64,000 bases of DNA from Alkalihalobacillus sp. AL-G. Lineage in GTDB: Bacteria; Bacillota; Bacilli; Bacillales; Fictibacillaceae. The notes beneath the pieces were generated by a model. That model was given only the letters and a program-made list of their open reading frames with translations, ran no database searches and was not told the DNA's origin. The translations under genes and the position numbers were made by a program. Location: the NCBI RefSeq assembly GCF_030643805.1, contig NZ_CP094656.1, positions 1,426,001 to 1,490,000 on the forward strand, written 5' to 3'. Positions 7,485 through 39,411 of this stretch are shown one piece after another. Within the stretch, counting starts at the first letter, position 1. Each line of letters begins with the position of its first letter.

Positions 7485-8185
7485 ATGGCTCGGGAAACGA
7501 TTCAAAATATGGATGATGTTTTAAAGATGCTCGATTCGCTGCTTAGGGATGAAGGAGAATGGTGGAACGGTTTTTACGAAGATCGTAGCAAAGAAATCCC
7601 GTTCTTTGTGAACGTCCCTGATGAGAATTTGGTCGAGTATTTTGATAAAGGAATTTTTATCGATGGAAAGGTACTTGAGTTAGGCTGTGGACCAGGTCGA
7701 AATGCAATCTATTGTACAGAAAAAGGTTGTGAAGTGGATGCAGTAGATCTTTCGACGGAAGCGTTGGACTGGGGAAAAGAACGTGCTGACGAAAAGGGGT
7801 TGGATGTCAACTTCATTCATAGCAGCTTGTATGATTTAAATCATCAACCGGAATCGTATGACATCATTTATGATAGTGGTTGCTTCCATCATATCCCGCC
7901 ACACCGACGGTTCACTTATTTAGAACTGATCGAGAATGCCTTGAAATCGGGAGGGTATTTTGGACTTACTTGTTTTCGTCAGGAGGTATGGGCTCAGACA
8001 TGTCCGATTGGGAGGTGTACCGTGATAAAAGTATGAAAGGCGGGCTCGCGTTTACGGAAAAGAAGCTGGTGGAAATCTTTAATACGCTTGAGGTTGTAGA
8101 GATTCGGGAAATGCGTGAATTCAAGCAGCCTGCTCGTGTTTTTGGCGCTTCTTTTTTGTGGGCAGCACTTTTTAGAAAAAAATAA
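7485..8185 (+). pseudogene. Class I SAM-dependent methyltransferase, frameshifted
   Basis: The first 165 or so codons give a methyltransferase with the SAM-binding motif VLELGCGPGRNAIYCTEKG near residue 63 and DAVDLS near 85. In the run TGTTTTCG (7971-7978) the frame breaks: the original frame ends at a TGA near 8036 while the expected C-terminus (SSGGMGSDMSDWEVYRDKS..., to 8185) continues in another frame. Adding one T to the four-T run (7973-7976) restores a single protein of about 233 residues. This is either a real inactivating deletion or a sequencing error in a homopolymer. It sits 12 nt behind the GNAT gene. Confidence 0.85.
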
Positions 8186-11002: not shown

Positions 11003-11041
11003 AAAAAAAGCCCTAGAGATTATAATGAATCTCCCAGGCTT
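11003..11041 (-). terminator. Riboswitch expression-platform terminator
   Basis: On the minus strand AGCCTGGGAGATT pairs with AATCTCTAGGGCT, followed by seven T. The 5' arm is shared with the conserved 3' end of the aptamer, so guanidine binding would prevent its formation. Confidence 0.85.
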
Positions 11042-11122
11042 TTGTCCGTCCGTGTGCACAGTAAAATCACTGTGTGTTTTCTCTCGGACCAGACCAGCCT
11101 CAGGAGCTGCGGAACCCTAGAA
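11030..11122 (-). ncRNA. Guanidine-I (ykkC) riboswitch aptamer
   Basis: On the minus strand the conserved blocks of the ykkC class appear in order: CTAGGGTTCCG at the 5' end, CTGGTCCGAGAG (here with GGTCTGGTCCGAGAGA), a variable AC-rich hairpin, then ACGGAC..GGACAAAAGCC and CTGGGAGA. The class senses guanidine and turns on export genes. It lies directly before a terminator and the two SMR genes. Confidence 0.93.
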
Positions 11123-11183
11123 AACAATTTTAATCTATTCAATTTCCGAGTTTATTATTGCACAAAATAGAAGCAAATACAAC

Positions 11184-24814: not shown

Positions 24815-25612
24815 TTGAAAAACAGTACGTCTGTCGATAAAGTATCTGGATTAAAGGGTCAATGGATTAAGATCAACTTAGGAGGGCCGGAATCTCGAGC
24901 GGGTAAGCTACTAGCTATAAAAAAGGATTATTTAACAATCCAAACAAAAAAGGATGAGGTAATCTATTATCAGCTTGATCACATCAAGGGTGTTTCAATC
25001 AACGCCAACAACTATTGGTTAACGTCTCGGAAGGTAAAGCATCTTGATGAAGAATGCTTTGTCGATGTCCTGAGGCACTTCAAGCACAAGAAAGTTAAAA
25101 TCAACCGTGGTGGACCTGAGAGCATAGAAGGTGTCATGAATGAGATCTTTAAAGATCACATTGAGCTTACAGTCGGCGATGACATTGTGTTTCTATCAAT
25201 CTGGCACCTTAAGAGTGTAAGTGCAGCAGAATCTGCCAAGCATCATTCCAGTGGTAAAAAGTCATCTGGCAAAAAGGGCAAAGGCAAGAAAGACTCTGGA
25301 AAGAAAAGCTCAGGAAAGAAGAGTTCAGGAAAGAAAAGCTCAGACAGGAAAAGTTCTGGTAGGAAGTCTTCAGACCACAAATCTTCAGGCAAGAAGCGTT
25401 CAGACGGTAAGAAAAGGTCTTCAGACAAATGCTCAAAAGTATCGGATGCAGTGAAGGAAGCACATCGTTCTGGGTCTGACAAATATATGCACAATGACCC
25501 GTATGGTTCAAGCAAAAAGTCCAGAGACTCAAAAAGCAGTTCAAAAAGACGTTCAATGAGCCAAAGATCATTAACTAGCTTAGAGCGTAAAGGCTGGGTA
25601 AAGTTATCCTAG
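24815..25612 (+). CDS. CotB-like spore coat protein with Ser/Lys-rich tail
   Basis: 265 residues. Two copies of the CotB N-terminal repeat occur at about 12-60 and 88-135: each has a GGPES turn (INLGGPESRAG, INRGGPESIEG), a hydrophobic strand pair and HIKGVS/HLKSVS. Residues 140-255 are a low-complexity tail built on SSGKK, SSDRK and SSGRK units. B. subtilis CotB has three such repeats and a similar tail that is phosphorylated by CotH kinase in the outer coat; a cotH gene lies 3.3 kb downstream. TTG start, AAGGAGG upstream. Probably expressed late in the mother cell. Confidence 0.87.
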   Translation: MKNSTSVDKVSGLKGQWIKINLGGPESRAGKLLAIKKDYLTIQTKKDEVIYYQLDHIKGVSINANNYWLTSRKVKHLDEECFVDVLRHFKHKKVKINRGGPESIEGVMNEIFKDHIELTVGDDIVFLSIWHLKSVSAAESAKHHSSGKKSSGKKGKGKKDSGKKSSGKKSSGKKSSDRKSSGRKSSDHKSSGKKRSDGKKRSSDKCSKVSDAVKEAHRSGSDKYMHNDPYGSSKKSRDSKSSSKRRSMSQRSLTSLERKGWVKLS

Positions 25613-34066: not shown

Positions 34067-34444
34067 ATGAATGGAATAGATAGTGTGTTGGATTCTTACT
34101 TTGATGCTTGGAATCGTGCGTTTCAAAGTAAAAACGATACAGAGATCCGTGCGTTTTTATCAAAGGAATTCAAAGGACATTTCGGCCGTTCAGAAATGAC
34201 GGAAGCCTATACATATGATGCAGACTATGAGATTGTACCGATCCTCAACATGTACACAACAGCGGAAAAAAGCTTTGAAGTTCTCTCTTCAGCAAAACGA
34301 AACAGTGACCGGGAAATCGTCGTCATTGGAAATGAACAAAATTTAATCGATGGTGAGCTGAGCAAAGCAAAAAGTATGATGATTTGGCGTAACGAAAACA
34401 ACGAATGGAAGTTGTTAAGAGAATATATCGAACTGGAAAAATGA
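34067..34444 (+). CDS. NTF2-like (SnoaL/DUF4440-type) hypothetical protein
   Basis: 125 residues with the alpha+beta cone pattern of NTF2-like proteins: N-terminal helix SVLDSYFDAWNRAFQSKN, then strands ending in MMIWRNENNEWKLLREYIE. The closing motif matches that of the protein at 61344 (EWTLLRSYIE), so the two are probably paralogues. Function unknown. Weak ribosome site (TTGGTGG). Confidence 0.65.
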   Translation: MNGIDSVLDSYFDAWNRAFQSKNDTEIRAFLSKEFKGHFGRSEMTEAYTYDADYEIVPILNMYTTAEKSFEVLSSAKRNSDREIVVIGNEQNLIDGELSKAKSMMIWRNENNEWKLLREYIELEK

Positions 34445-34466
34445 TTGAATGGCAGTTTACAGAATC

Positions 34467-34495
34467 TTGACAACATGTTGATCCTGAACTAGGAT
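34467..34495 (+). promoter_or_regulatory. Promoter of the TRAP-type leader
   Basis: TTGACA (34467-34472), 17-nt spacer, TAGGAT (34490-34495). Transcription would start near 34502, about 18 nt before the first triplet of the array. Confidence 0.6.
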
Positions 34496-34519
34496 GTAAA
34501 TAATCTAGTTATTTGTGTT

Positions 34520-34561
34520 TAGTTGAGATGAGTTGAGTTAGAAGAGTTGAGACGAGAATAG
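34520..34561 (+). promoter_or_regulatory. TRAP-type (G/T)AG triplet array 1 in a leader RNA
   Basis: Nine triplets TAG, GAG, GAG, GAG, TAG, GAG, GAG, GAG, TAG start at 34520, 25, 30, 35, 39, 44, 49, 54 and 59. All spacers are 2 nt except one of 1 nt. This is the pattern bound by the trp RNA-binding attenuation protein (TRAP, mtrB) with tryptophan. The next element is an intrinsic terminator, and a fused anthranilate synthase gene lies 0.8 kb downstream. Confidence 0.75.
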
Positions 34562-34587
34562 TTGATTATATTGGTGAAAAACGAGGT

Positions 34588-34618
34588 TAACGTGGACCCT
34601 CTCCCGTTACTGTTTTTT
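34588..34618 (+). terminator. Attenuator-type terminator after TRAP array 1
   Basis: TAACG-GG pairs with CC-CGTTA (one bulged T) around ACCCTCT, followed by ACTGTTTTTT. Its position 27 nt after the triplet array fits trp-type attenuation. An antiterminator partner is not obvious by eye. Confidence 0.6.
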
Positions 34619-34671
34619 CCGATGCTATTATAACTTCCTCAGCTCTATCTTCTTTCAAAGGAGTGATAGAG

Positions 34672-35218
34672 ATGCCATTTCTATTGAATCATCAACGGTT
34701 CATTCCACCTTGAACGCCGAATACTTTTCTGATTTCCTACTGTATGATAAAGAACAAATGAGCGTCCAGTTTGAAGAGAACGTTATTTCGCCTTGAATAA
34801 ATCTGGTATTGACTATATGGAAATAGGATATAAAAACTCACCAAGATTCGAAGCCTCACAGGATATAGGTCCATGGAGATTTTGACCTGCACACACAGAA
34901 TAACTTACAGCTCGCTTTTTCTTACGCGATCCTTGCAGCAAGGAATGGCATCGAATTTTTGGATAGTTCGGTGTACGGAATGGGGAGAGCAGCAGGAAAT
35001 TGCCCGACTGAATTACTAGTTAGTATTTTCAGGGAAAGCATTATGACCTTGGGCCGATCTTGGAAATACTAGAAAACCAGTTCATCCCACCAAAAGAAAG
35101 AAAAGAATGGGGTTACGCTATCCCATTTACAATTTCAGGGCTACTGAATAAGCATCCAAAACCCGAAATGAAGTTACAAAAAAGTGTTGAAAAGAACCAA
35201 TTTCTCGATTTTTTATGA
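34672..35218 (+). pseudogene. Decayed aldolase (HMGL / 4-hydroxy-2-oxovalerate aldolase-like)
   Basis: AAAGGAGTGATAGAG precedes ATG 34672, but no frame stays open. Pieces in several frames are clearly aldolase-like: LNKSGIDYMEIGYKNSPRF (from about 34794), then HTQNNLQLAFSYAILAARNG and FLDSSVYGMGRAAGNCPTE (34890-35016), then DLGPILEILENQFIPPKE up to TGA 35216-35218. Frames change near 34793 and 35030, the N-terminal DCTLRDGG segment is missing, and about 100 codons are lost near 34885. It lies between the two TRAP-type arrays, so it was probably once part of that transcription unit. Confidence 0.72.
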
Positions 35219-35239
35219 TACGATTTCGAATTAATTAAC

Positions 35240-35282
35240 TAGAAGAGCTGAGGTAGATGAGATGAGTAGAGAAGAGTTAAAG
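35240..35282 (+). promoter_or_regulatory. TRAP-type (G/T)AG triplet array 2, upstream of trpE(G)
   Basis: TAG, GAG, GAG, TAG, GAG, GAG, GAG, GAG and AAG start at 35240, 45, 50, 54, 59, 64, 69, 74 and 80, with spacers of mostly 2 nt. The array ends 38 nt before the trpE(G) start. No terminator follows, so TRAP here would act on translation or RNA structure rather than by attenuation. Confidence 0.7.
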
Positions 35283-35320
35283 GGAAATTTGCAATTCCTT
35301 TCCAGACCTGGTGGTAGTTC

Positions 35321-37507
35321 ATGAGTATTTTGACACAGGTCCGAGAAAGAGTCGATACCACATCTTACACAACGTGTGGAGGAATTTATGTTTCAAGACA
35401 AAATAAGGAACTACGATATGAAACAGCTACGGACGGGATTCTAAAAGAAATAGATTATCGGAAGGGGGCACTGTTTTCTAGTCGATATCAGTACCCTGGC
35501 CGGTATTCTCGTTGGGATGTCGGGTTTTATAACCCAATGGTCGAATTGCGTTCACAGGGGAGAAAATTTGAATTTGATGCACTGAATGAACGAGGCGGTC
35601 TTCTTTTAACCCTACTATATGACAAATTGGAAGGGTTATCTGAAATCAGTTCATTAACGCTTGAAGGAAATACTATAAAAGGACAAGTGGTTTCTGATCA
35701 TCGGGTTTATGAAGAAGAAATGCGTAGTAAACTACCCTCCATTTTCACCGTCATACGAGCGGTCAAATCACTATTTGAATCCGAACAAGATGCTTTTCTC
35801 GGTTTATATGGAGCGTTTGGTTATGATCTGGTATTTCAATTTGAACCGATACCGTTGAAGCGTGATCGTACTCAAGATTCGAATGATCTAGTACTATTTA
35901 TTCCCGATGAATTAGTCGTCGTGGACCATGAATTACAAGCGGCTCATTTGCTATCCTACGAGTTTGTGATACCTTCGACTGGAAAAACGACCGAAGGGTT
36001 GGAGCGTTGTGGTAGGTATCAAAAGCCTAATTTAACAATGGAAAAACCACCACAAACGTTTCAAGCTGGGAGTTATGCTCATAAAGTGAACCTTGCCAAA
36101 GGAGCTTTCAAAAAGGGAGATCTATTTGAGGTAGTTCCGTCTCATTCGATCTTTGAAAAATGCGAGGAGTTCCCGTCAGAGGTCTTTACAACATTACAGA
36201 ACATAAATCCGAGCCCATATGGTTTTGTCATCAATCTCGGAAATGAGTTCCTTGTCGGGTCATCACCTGAAATGTATGTCCGGACGGAAGGAAGCAGAGT
36301 TGAGACATGTCCGATTTCAGGAACGATCAAACGTGGACGAAACGCAATTGAGGATGCTGAACAAATCCGCACATTATTAAATTCCGCTAAGGATGAAGAC
36401 GAATTGACGATGTGTACGGATGTAGATCGAAATGACAAGTCCCGAATCTGTAGACCAGGCTCTGTAAAGGTAATCGGGAGAAGACAAATTGAGCTCTATT
36501 CCCATTTGATTCATACGGTGGATCATGTTGAAGGTCTGTTGCGACCTGAATTCGATGCACTCGATGCATTTTTGACCCATATGTGGGCCGTTACGATTAC
36601 AGGTGCACCGAAAAAAGCGGCGATACGATGGATCGAAGAACAAGAGGCATCACCTAGGGGTTGGTATGGCGGAGCAGTCGGCTGGTTCAGCTTCAATGGA
36701 GATTTAAACACTGGATTGACATTAAGGACGATGAAGATCAAAAACGGTGTGGCTGAAATACGAGTTGGTGCCACCCTTTTAAACGATTCAATACCTGAAG
36801 CAGAGGAACAAGAGACACTAACGAAGGCTGCCGCATTGGTTCAATCCGTTCGGAAATCTACAATTCAAAAGGATTCTCGTGTTCAAGTTTACCGTGCAGG
36901 TGTTGGGAAAAAGGTGCTGTTGGTCGATCACGAGGATTCATTTGTCCACAGCTTGGCAGATTTTTTAAGACAAACAGGGGCCGAAGTGAAAACGTTAAGA
37001 GCTGATTTGGCAAGAAAAGTTCTTGGCCAGAATTGTTCATTCGACCTCGTTGTATTGTCACCTGGACCGGGAAAGCCTGAGGATTTCAGACTTACTCAAA
37101 CAATTGATATGTGTTTGGAAAACGAGCTGCCGATTTTTGGAGTTTGTTTAGGGTTCCAAGGAATTGTTGAGTATTTTGGCGGCAGCCTAAATGTACTGGC
37201 GATCCCTCAGCACGGAAAGCCGACAACCGTTCATGTAGAAAAATCAAATTCAGTATGGAGAAAGTTGCCTGAATCGTTTAAAGCGAGTCTCTATCATTCC
37301 CTGTTTGCTGAAACAATACCGGAATGTCTTGAGCTTATTGGAATCTCCGAACAAAAAGTACCGATGGCAATAAAACATAAGGAATTACCGATCTTAGGTC
37401 TGCAATTTCACCCGGAATCGATACTGACAAATATAAACGAAATCGGCTTGGAAATTATAAATAATGTAGTAGACCAAGTGACTTCAAGGACAACAATCCA
37501 GACCTAG
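35321..37507 (+). CDS. trpE(G): Fused anthranilate synthase TrpE(G)
   Basis: 728 residues. Residues 1-510 are the chorismate-using TrpE component (signatures PISGTIKRGRNAIEDAEQIR near 330, LTMCTDVDRNDKSRIC near 365, THMWAVTITGAPKKAAIRWI near 420, GWYGGAVGWFS near 445). Residues 525-725 are the TrpG glutamine amidotransferase with GVCLGFQG (nucleophile Cys 609) and QFHPES (His 697, Glu 699). It makes anthranilate from chorismate and glutamine. Fused forms are known in rhizobia and as phenazine PhzE; Bacillaceae normally have separate trpE and trpG. The TRAP-type arrays upstream point to tryptophan synthesis. Confidence 0.92.
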   Translation: MSILTQVRERVDTTSYTTCGGIYVSRQNKELRYETATDGILKEIDYRKGALFSSRYQYPGRYSRWDVGFYNPMVELRSQGRKFEFDALNERGGLLLTLLYDKLEGLSEISSLTLEGNTIKGQVVSDHRVYEEEMRSKLPSIFTVIRAVKSLFESEQDAFLGLYGAFGYDLVFQFEPIPLKRDRTQDSNDLVLFIPDELVVVDHELQAAHLLSYEFVIPSTGKTTEGLERCGRYQKPNLTMEKPPQTFQAGSYAHKVNLAKGAFKKGDLFEVVPSHSIFEKCEEFPSEVFTTLQNINPSPYGFVINLGNEFLVGSSPEMYVRTEGSRVETCPISGTIKRGRNAIEDAEQIRTLLNSAKDEDELTMCTDVDRNDKSRICRPGSVKVIGRRQIELYSHLIHTVDHVEGLLRPEFDALDAFLTHMWAVTITGAPKKAAIRWIEEQEASPRGWYGGAVGWFSFNGDLNTGLTLRTMKIKNGVAEIRVGATLLNDSIPEAEEQETLTKAAALVQSVRKSTIQKDSRVQVYRAGVGKKVLLVDHEDSFVHSLADFLRQTGAEVKTLRADLARKVLGQNCSFDLVVLSPGPGKPEDFRLTQTIDMCLENELPIFGVCLGFQGIVEYFGGSLNVLAIPQHGKPTTVHVEKSNSVWRKLPESFKASLYHSLFAETIPECLELIGISEQKVPMAIKHKELPILGLQFHPESILTNINEIGLEIINNVVDQVTSRTTIQT

Positions 37508-38092: not shown

Positions 38093-38253
38093 CTCTTATC
38101 AAGAGAGGCAGAGGGACTGGCCCGATGAAGCCCGGCAACCGTCAAACATTTGTTTGAAATGGTGCCAAATCCTACAAAGCGTAAAGCTTTGAGAGATGAG
38201 AGAGACAAATGCGTACATTTTGCCTCTCTGAATTCTCAGGGAGGCTTTTTTAA
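38093..38253 (+). ncRNA. SAM-I riboswitch (S-box) with terminator
   Basis: Canonical S-box blocks in order: CTCTTATCAAGAGAGGCAGA, GGGACTGGCCCGATGAAGCC, CGGCAACC, GGTGCCAAATCC, the AAAGC..GCTTT hairpin and AGATGAGAGAG. The terminator GCCTCTCTGA/TCAGGGAGGC plus TTTTTT (38222-38253) overlaps an alternative pairing with GAGAGACAAA. When SAM is abundant it switches off the metX-metY-hom operon. Confidence 0.96.
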
Positions 38254-38283: not shown

Positions 38284-39411
38284 TTGGCCCAACAAACCTT
38301 TTATGAAACGGGAGCTGTAAAGATCGGCGACATGAATCTTGAATCTGGGAAAATGCTTTCAGAAGTAGAAATGGCCTTTGAACGTGCTGGACCAAAGGAT
38401 GCCCCAGTGATTCTCGTCTGTCACGCATTAACCGGCAACCAGTATACAGTCGGTAACCACGAACAAAAGGGCTGGTGGAAAGGACTTATTTTTGATGGTG
38501 GATATGTAGATACAAACCAATACCAAGTACTGACGTTCAATGTGCTTGGTGGGTGCGATGGTTCCACCGGTCCTACATCAATCAACCCAATCACCGGTCA
38601 ATCTTACAACGGAAAGTTTCCATTCATCACAGTGAAGGATATGGTCAAAGCTCAATATTTGGCACTTGAAAAGCTGGATATCCATCATTTGAAAGCGGTG
38701 ATCGGGGGTTCACTAGGTGGGATGCAGGTTCTCGAATGGGGCATTCAATTTCCTCAGGCGGTAGAAGTATTGTTCCCGCTTGCGGTCACACCATCGCTCA
38801 GTGATTTCGGGATCGCTTTCAACCATATTTCAAGGACCGCGATCCTTAATGACCCGAACTGGAACGATGGACATTATTCCAGGGAACAAATACCCGATAA
38901 AGGATTAGCGCTAGCAAGAATGATCGGCATGCTGACTTATCGAACTGATTCCTTGTTTGGTGAACGATTTCATCGTTCGGAATGTTTACGTGACGGAGAG
39001 CGACATCATAAGCCTTCATTTGAAATTGAATCTTATTTAAACTACCAGGGTGAAAAATTGACATCACGGTTTGATGCAAACAGCTATCTGTACCTTTTGA
39101 AAGCAATGGATTTGCACGATATTGGAAAAGGGAGAGCTGGTTGGAACGGAGCAATAAAAGAAATCAACGCACAGATTGTTGCAATCGGATTCAGCAACGA
39201 CTTGGTCTATCCTCCCGAAAAACTTCAACATTTTGTAATAGCTTGTGAGAATCATGATAAGTCAGCAGATTACTTTGAGGTTGAGACCCAATTCGGACAC
39301 GACGGTTTTCTCGTCGAGTTTGAAAAATGGGGCTATATTATCCGAAACAAACTGACCCAATTGGAATTGATCAGTAGTAATGCTTCTGAAATGAGAGCTT
39401 TAGAAAATTGA
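38284..39411 (+). CDS. metX: Homoserine O-acetyltransferase MetX
   Basis: 375 residues, alpha/beta hydrolase. It transfers acetyl from acetyl-CoA to homoserine, the first committed step to methionine. The nucleophile elbow GGSLGGMQVLEW (Ser 143), the entry motif ALTGNQYTVG, NDLVYPPEKL with the acidic residue and FGHDGFLVE with the His are all present. TTG start 38284 with GGGGGAG upstream. First gene after the S-box; metY and hom follow. Confidence 0.94.
   Translation: MAQQTFYETGAVKIGDMNLESGKMLSEVEMAFERAGPKDAPVILVCHALTGNQYTVGNHEQKGWWKGLIFDGGYVDTNQYQVLTFNVLGGCDGSTGPTSINPITGQSYNGKFPFITVKDMVKAQYLALEKLDIHHLKAVIGGSLGGMQVLEWGIQFPQAVEVLFPLAVTPSLSDFGIAFNHISRTAILNDPNWNDGHYSREQIPDKGLALARMIGMLTYRTDSLFGERFHRSECLRDGERHHKPSFEIESYLNYQGEKLTSRFDANSYLYLLKAMDLHDIGKGRAGWNGAIKEINAQIVAIGFSNDLVYPPEKLQHFVIACENHDKSADYFEVETQFGHDGFLVEFEKWGYIIRNKLTQLELISSNASEMRALEN

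Follow-up and report, generated by a model that had tools for sequence, protein, structure and literature searches.

Two TRAP-type triplet arrays and a conserved Pro-Pro-UGA upstream reading frame at a probable collapsed trp operon of Alkalihalobacillus sp. AL-G

The 64,000 nt of Alkalihalobacillus sp. AL-G considered here (contig NZ_CP094656.1, positions 1,426,001 to 1,490,000 of the forward strand, called the window below) contain trpE(G), the gene for a fused anthranilate synthase, preceded by two arrays of GAG and TAG triplets of the type bound by the RNA-binding regulator TRAP. TRAP is known from B. subtilis, where it acts through an attenuator and a translation block. Based on an entirely computational analysis, it is probable that the locus is a collapsed trp operon keeping two TRAP sites, that TRAP gates a short upstream open reading frame (uORF), and that a ribosome delayed at the Pro-Pro-UGA end of this uORF opens trpD where that gene follows. 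The arrays had been noticed in a preliminary description of the same DNA, in which the uORF was overlooked.

Results

The first array (array 1, 34520..34561; all elements of the locus are on the forward strand) consists of nine GAG/TAG triplets with spacers of 2, 2, 2, 1, 2, 2, 2 and 2 nt, and the nine triplets with near-constant 2-nt spacers of the preliminary description were recovered by a search for GAG/TAG chains. Array 2 (35240..35282), separated from array 1 by 678 nt and previously given as about nine triplets, is made up of eight GAG/TAG triplets at 35240-35276, with spacers of 2, 2, 1, 2, 2, 2 and 2 nt, and an AAG at 35280-35282 as the ninth. The distance of 38 nt between its end and the ATG of trpE(G) at 35321 was reproduced. 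Both arrays have the make-up expected of a TRAP target, namely 7-11 (G/U)AG repeats with spacers mostly of 2 nt, and, according to PMC4027176, arrays of 7 or more repeats are bound stably by TRAP. A comparison with sister species, as had been proposed, showed that array 1 is kept in P. decolorationis and that array 2 has a counterpart there.

A chance origin of the arrays was rejected on three counts. A stringent six-triplet pattern matched twice in the 4.16-Mb genome, both times at this locus, while its reversed control matched nowhere. When the window was simulated 300 times with a first-order Markov model (both strands), chains did not exceed 7 triplets, a length seen once, and the window without its two arrays holds no GAG/TAG chain longer than 3. 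Finally, GAG/TAG clusters were present in all 16 leaders of the genus set, which comprises eight genomes (G000-G007, with G000, 4,155,898 bases, being that of the window and G002 that of P. decolorationis) and two leaders in each, before trpD and before trpE(G). The number of non-overlapping triplets per 60 nt is 8-11 in the trpD leaders and 6-10 in the trpE(G) leaders. Per leader, this density was equalled by 0-13 of 2000 simulations, the weakest clusters being those before trpE(G) in G004 and G005 (12 and 13 of 2000, respectively). Ten triplets within 60 nt also precede trpE(G) in a genome of another genus (G026, locus L151), and therefore the site before trpE(G) is either older than the genus or has moved with the gene. 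No TrpD match was found in the 16.5 kb fetched from G026, and no match above chance to the leader model R1 described below.

The search for mtrB, which had been asked for beforehand, found the gene at G000:C1:2414846-2415049 with 137.4 bits to PF02081. Residues 2-67 of its 68-residue product match TRAP chains in the PDB, with E-values of 1.2e-34 for a single chain and 5.4e-70 for a doubled construct, and mtrB is present in all eight genus genomes. The start of trpP carries TRAP-type triplets in each of them as well (four by pattern, four by reading; loci L117-L120, L123-L125 and L128, the copy of G001 belonging to PF17099), and trpP is a known TRAP target in B. subtilis according to PMC4347634. 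Anti-TRAP (PF15777) was detected in one of the eight, P. decolorationis, and was not found in the window genome.

The leader begins with a promoter-like TTGACA-N17-TAGGAT (34467..34495, with TAGGAT at 34490-34495). Its hexamers and 17-nt spacing are as previously described ahead of array 1, and are the same in P. decolorationis. It is the sole promoter-like site in 34400-35400, where shuffled sequences average 2.3. Array 1 is followed by a weak terminator-like hairpin with a U-run (34580..34618); by reading, the trpD leaders of the relatives have clearer hairpins with U-runs at the equivalent place. Downstream of the terminator, the leaders share the order (C/A)CTCA(G/A)CTCTATC, Shine-Dalgarno sequence (SD), GATAGAG and start codon. 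In the window, this corresponds to CCTCAG and a hairpin around the SD of the uORF (hairpin I; both together 34637..34671), in which CTCTATC at 34643-34649 pairs with GATAGAG at 34665-34671, and to the uORF itself (MPFLLNHQRFIPP, 34672..34713), with 13 codons and UGA.

This uORF is present in all ten leader copies of the eight genomes, that is, in the eight trpD leaders and in the trpE(G) copies of P. decolorationis and the window species, and each copy has retained its SD, start and stop. The search was based on one strict pattern requiring an open frame. It found nine short uORFs of 13-15 codons, all ending in UGA, including MSFPIIQQRFIPP in the P. decolorationis trpE(G) copy and MFTNSYPNCFQPP in the trpD copy of the window species, while six further ones end in FIPP. 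The tenth copy, in the P. decolorationis trpD leader, has a GTG start and an in-frame repeat insert, and stays open for 168 codons up to V-P-P-UGA (L116, reverse strand 7527-8033), whereas the other two frames of the insert stretch contain 13 and 4 stops. As repeats of this kind can have one open frame by nature, this supports coding without deciding it. Pro-Pro-UGA is thus found in 10 of the 10 copies.

Termination-arrest leader peptides are expected to be short, conserved, equipped with their own SD, start and stop, and located ahead of the gene that they regulate, and the uORF has these features in the ten copies, one of them lengthened by the insert. The leader peptide TnaC has an essential Trp residue; the nine short uORFs have no Trp codon, and a TnaC-like sensing of free tryptophan was rejected on that ground. 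In E. coli, a C-terminal Pro-Pro interferes with termination, and ribosomes were arrested in the contexts tested (YbeL-PP; PMC3834316). By analogy, the C-terminal Pro-Pro of the uORF would belong to the residues able to delay termination.

Folding and comparison both point to two hairpins in this leader. RNAalifold on seven trpD leaders gave hairpin I over the uORF SD and a hairpin II of 13 bp, whose 3' arm holds the SD of trpD and whose 5' arm is set off from the uORF UGA by a single base in all seven. When UGA is in the A site, a ribosome covers about ten further bases, and the arm complementary to the trpD SD would therefore be masked. Such masking of the controlling strand is predicted for 7 of the 7 aligned trpD leaders and for neither of the two trpE(G) copies. 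Both hairpins appear in the four single folds made of these leaders (z -3.3 to -4.0). In hairpin II, two pairs are changed on both sides, and none of 500 shuffles reached the observed number of cells with such changes or the observed covariation score; hairpin I is conserved without covariation.

Hairpin I is linked to array 1 by the complementarity of CTCAGCTC to GAGUUGAG of array 1 and of the arrays in the other leaders. Nine of the ten leader copies were folded with the triplets held unpaired to imitate bound TRAP, and the probability of hairpin I rose in all nine: from 0.13 to 0.97 in the window and from 0.00-0.85 to 0.99-1.00 in seven other leaders. When the letters of the array were shuffled, the mean probability of hairpin I in the free state was higher in 9 of the 9, with 0 to 8 of 60 shuffles (0 of 30 for G007) at or below the native value.

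The fused gene trpE(G) (35321..37507, 728 amino acids, domains Anth_synt_I_N, Chorismate_bind and GATase) has a probable SD, GGTGG, at 35310..35314, read from the sequence, and array 2 ends 27 nt ahead of it. When the triplets are kept unpaired, folding predicts closure of the trpE(G) SD in G002 (0.43 to 0.01), G004 (0.58 to 0.07) and G005 (0.60 to 0.03); the effect is slight in G001 (0.24 to 0.14) and G007 (0.17 to 0.09). For G003 and G006, the SD-like stretch that was selected is overlapped by two triplets. The window genome has three chorismate-binding enzymes, trpE(G) among them. The other two are, as we take them to be, of the PabB and MenF type, and therefore trpE(G) is probably the sole anthranilate synthase. 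Among the 34 genomes of the family, TrpE(G) with at least 59% identity occurs in all eight of the genus and in G026. The nearest named homologs outside, ranked among the 80 loci kept, are from Syntrophomonas and Syntrophomonadaceae (56-61%), Gelria (55%) and Paenibacillus (53-55%).

The dead gene seen between the arrays proved to be the relic of an HMGL-like aldolase (34775..35212). Its three tblastn pieces (34775-34882, 34887-35021 and 34982-35212) match residues 28-63, 194-238 and 226-302 of the intact aldolase of a relative, and residues 64-193 had no tblastn match in the window. An intact homolog, L005:5010-5963, belongs to PF00682. In six genus members, trpD, trpC and, 2.7-3.7 kb on, trpE(G) form one run. 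An intact aldolase precedes trpE(G) in three of them (L100, L102 and L103), consistent with the earlier suggestion that the aldolase had once been part of the unit; in the remaining three it had no match. The trpD and trpC genes of the window species are found at a distant place next to aroB and aroF, with a leader copy of their own. TrpC was assigned via PF00218, while the labels TrpD, AroB and AroF come from reading the neighboring ORFs. P. decolorationis has the same split arrangement, and its locus shares the neighbors of the window. Of 16 window ORFs, trpE(G) alone matched L004, L005, L068 and L101-L103, the last three of which hold little flank.

Because of this split, the two arrays are read as the array of the operon leader and the array before trpE(G), and the window locus would be what is left of the operon: leader, aldolase relic and trpE(G). 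The preliminary description had offered either two-tier control or a duplicated leader. Both are partly right: two-site control seems to be general in the genus, and array 1 would belong to a leader copy dating from when the aldolase and further trp genes lay between the arrays; array 2 need not be a duplicate, since all eight genus genomes and L151 carry clusters before trpE(G).

The alignment of the region with P. decolorationis was usable up to the uORF, beyond which it breaks down because the relic is much shorter there; array 2 was aligned separately. Identities, somewhat inflated by the choice of alignment, are 20/30 for the promoter, 33/42 (79%) for array 1, 31/35 (89%) for the uORF hairpin and 30/42 (71%) for the uORF, compared to 29/61 (48%) for the 61 bases after the uORF and 104/245 (42%) for the fourfold sites of trpE(G). 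The binomial p-values for array 1, uORF hairpin and uORF are 2e-6, 2e-8 and 1e-4 against the fourfold level, and 4e-5, 4e-7 and 1.5e-3 against 29/61. Judging from these identities, the window uORF seems to be kept although the trpD hairpin is gone; one guess is that it protects the 5' end of the message.

The leader element was found in a single genus. The covariance model R1 was built from seven trpD leaders, with seven of the eight genus genomes supplying its rows, and it scored 49.7 bits on the window copy (34637-34760) and 58.9 and 35.9 bits on the trpE(G) and trpD copies of P. decolorationis, which are outside its rows. R1 matched 8 of the 34 family genomes, all from this genus. Since seven of them supplied the rows, their trpD hits are by construction, which leaves the window copy and the two P. 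decolorationis copies as independent hits. Across the class set of 398 genomes, where stricter filters lose weak matches, R1 matched 3, one of them that of the window, and none of the other 397 had a credible match. The two further matches, of about 27 bits, were judged false, as their 3.1-kb loci showed no match to TrpD, TrpC, TrpE(G), AroB or AroF and the motif is broken in the alignments. A wide spread of the uORF element was therefore rejected. Rfam reported nothing at the leader in the window or in four loci.

Several other elements were observed in passing. A Bacillaceae-1 RNA from Rfam (68.7 bits) is located at L108:1149-1216, upstream of the trp leader in G003. The window also contains a SAM riboswitch at 38093-38202 (forward strand, 100.6 bits) upstream of an ORF at 38284, presumably a homoserine O-acetyltransferase (metX), and a Guanidine-I riboswitch at 11029-11131 (reverse strand, 89.2 bits). 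A chain of 11 triplets, mostly AAG and CAG with mostly 2-nt spacing, at 25301-25353 (forward strand) may be a coding repeat and not a TRAP site.

Discussion

The likely ancestral layout would comprise the promoter, array 1, the terminator, the uORF, trpD, trpC, further putative trp genes, in some species the aldolase, array 2 and trpE(G). Tryptophan-loaded TRAP on array 1 would favor termination. On transcripts that read through, TRAP on array 1 would free CTCAGCTCTATC, so that hairpin I could close over the start of the uORF, and TRAP on array 2 would repress translation of trpE(G). Without TRAP, array 1 would pair with CTCAGCTC and the uORF would be translated. A ribosome held up at Pro-Pro-UGA would then, in the trpD leaders, cover the 5' arm of hairpin II and thereby free the SD of trpD.

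Parts of this layout have counterparts in known systems. In ermC-type translational attenuators, a leader ribosome opens a hairpin over the SD of the next gene. The same is predicted here, but for a biosynthetic operon without an antibiotic, with the ribosome positioned at the stop codon and the start of the uORF under a hairpin that competes with a TRAP array. TnaC, SpeFL and MsrDL (PMC10314930) are likewise short uORFs with the ribosome held at their own stop and an effect downstream, which is a prediction for the present uORF; the missing Trp codons of the nine short uORFs and the expected output, release of the trpD SD, set it apart. The Salmonella mgtQ uORF promotes translation of mgtB via alternative RNA structures (PMC8092293), although its peptide features, genes and signals are different. 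The trp leader of B. subtilis combines a triplet array, a terminator and a refolding that hides a downstream ribosome site (PMC4347634). The predicted switch of hairpin I resembles this refolding, aimed here at the uORF. Unlike in B. subtilis, the hidden SD is that of the uORF, there is a second array before trpE(G), and trpE is last and fused to trpG. The TRAP sites of B. subtilis trpG and trpP also lie near the start of a gene with glutaminase function and of trpP (same source), whereas here the trpG function is fused to trpE and array 2 stops 27 nt short of the SD without overlap.

Several observations weigh against the proposed mechanism. On a stricter chain measure, 31 of 2000 simulations matched the G002 cluster before trpD and 29 the G003 cluster before trpE(G). 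Covariation is thin, covering 2 of 27 pairs; 239 of 500 shuffles had at least as many, and further pair types were matched or exceeded by all 500. Hairpin II is absent from the window copy and from the trpE(G) copy of P. decolorationis, and in the latter hairpin I reaches just 0.25, from 0.00, with the triplets unpaired. The same constraint changes the mean unpaired probability of the uORF SD in the window in the wrong direction, from 0.31 to 0.51, and by at most 0.03 in the other eight folds. The uORF SD is not predicted to be more hidden because an inner CUCC/GGAG stem can stay. In addition, the in-frame length of the uORFs was imposed by the search pattern, and the trpD uORF of the window species ends in FQPP instead of FIPP. 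The terminator of the window is weak (fold energy of 34562-34622 -14.3 kcal/mol, z -1.63), a simple terminator scan of 34400-35400 found none, and with 24 of 39 bases matching P. decolorationis it has the lowest share among the control elements. For array 2 in the window, the predicted value for the trpE(G) SD is 0.25 both ways, and the array does not overlap the SD. With SD closure or overlap in the relatives and no change in the window, the models lend fair support to control of translation by array 2 in the genus and weak support in the window species.

Among the other explanations, plain translational coupling deserves the most attention, although we consider it unlikely. Any ribosome terminating at the uORF would open the trpD hairpin, and Pro-Pro would have no role in arrest. 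As hairpin II begins beside the UGA, a normally terminating ribosome would indeed open it too. However, coupling needs no Pro-Pro, and the ending is kept in every copy while the interior of the uORF varies, even after the repeat insertion. It is less probable still that array 1, the terminator and the uORF of the window are a decaying relic without present function, leaving array 2 alone to regulate trpE(G). The weak and poorly conserved terminator, the loss of trpD and its hairpin, and the roughly 500 nt of dead sequence that follow would fit such decay. Yet array 1, the uORF hairpin and the uORF are more conserved than the fourfold sites and the bases beyond the uORF, and the sole promoter-like site found in 34400-35400 precedes array 1.

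That the FIPP stretch is conserved as RNA, through an unseen structure or protein site, instead of as a peptide appears improbable to a greater degree. CCACC(T/A)TGAA is almost invariant as DNA, but there is synonymous variation in the codons for Phe, Ile and the last Pro, the ten copies all retain SD, start and stop, and the P. decolorationis insert is open in the uORF frame only, with the above reservation about repeats. Chance purine-rich sequence in place of TRAP sites can hardly be credited: chains admitting AAG and CAG occur elsewhere, such as that at 25301-25353, whereas the pattern restricted to GAG/TAG is confined to this locus, the clusters recur at the same two genes in eight species, and mtrB is present.

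Conclusion

The preliminary description had regarded the tandem layout as unfamiliar, and none was found in the literature searched. Serial arrays are nevertheless not unique to this genus, as inspection of two Syntrophomonadaceae loci (L014:412-595 and L010:277-655) showed one TRAP-type array, then a terminator-like hairpin, then another array at the SD of trpD. In six trpD leaders from Syntrophomonadaceae, no Pro-Pro-stop uORF turned up in a simple scan covering up to 450 nt. The literature searched, from which most subscription papers were absent, contains no report of TRAP sites in series or of a uORF linked to TRAP, which is weak evidence of novelty.

We see about even chances for a three-step relay, found in one genus, in which TRAP controls a uORF of 13-15 codons and the ribosome stalled at its Pro-Pro-UGA gives access to the first trp gene, while trpE(G), at the other end of the operon, answers to a TRAP site of its own. 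In B. subtilis, a second signal is supplied by anti-TRAP. Since anti-TRAP was found in one of the eight genomes, the uORF might, speculatively, supply such a signal in this genus. The apparent combination of TRAP with a conserved Pro-Pro-stop leader peptide is a pairing absent from the literature searched. If it works as proposed, an RNA-binding regulator would act through a ribosome.

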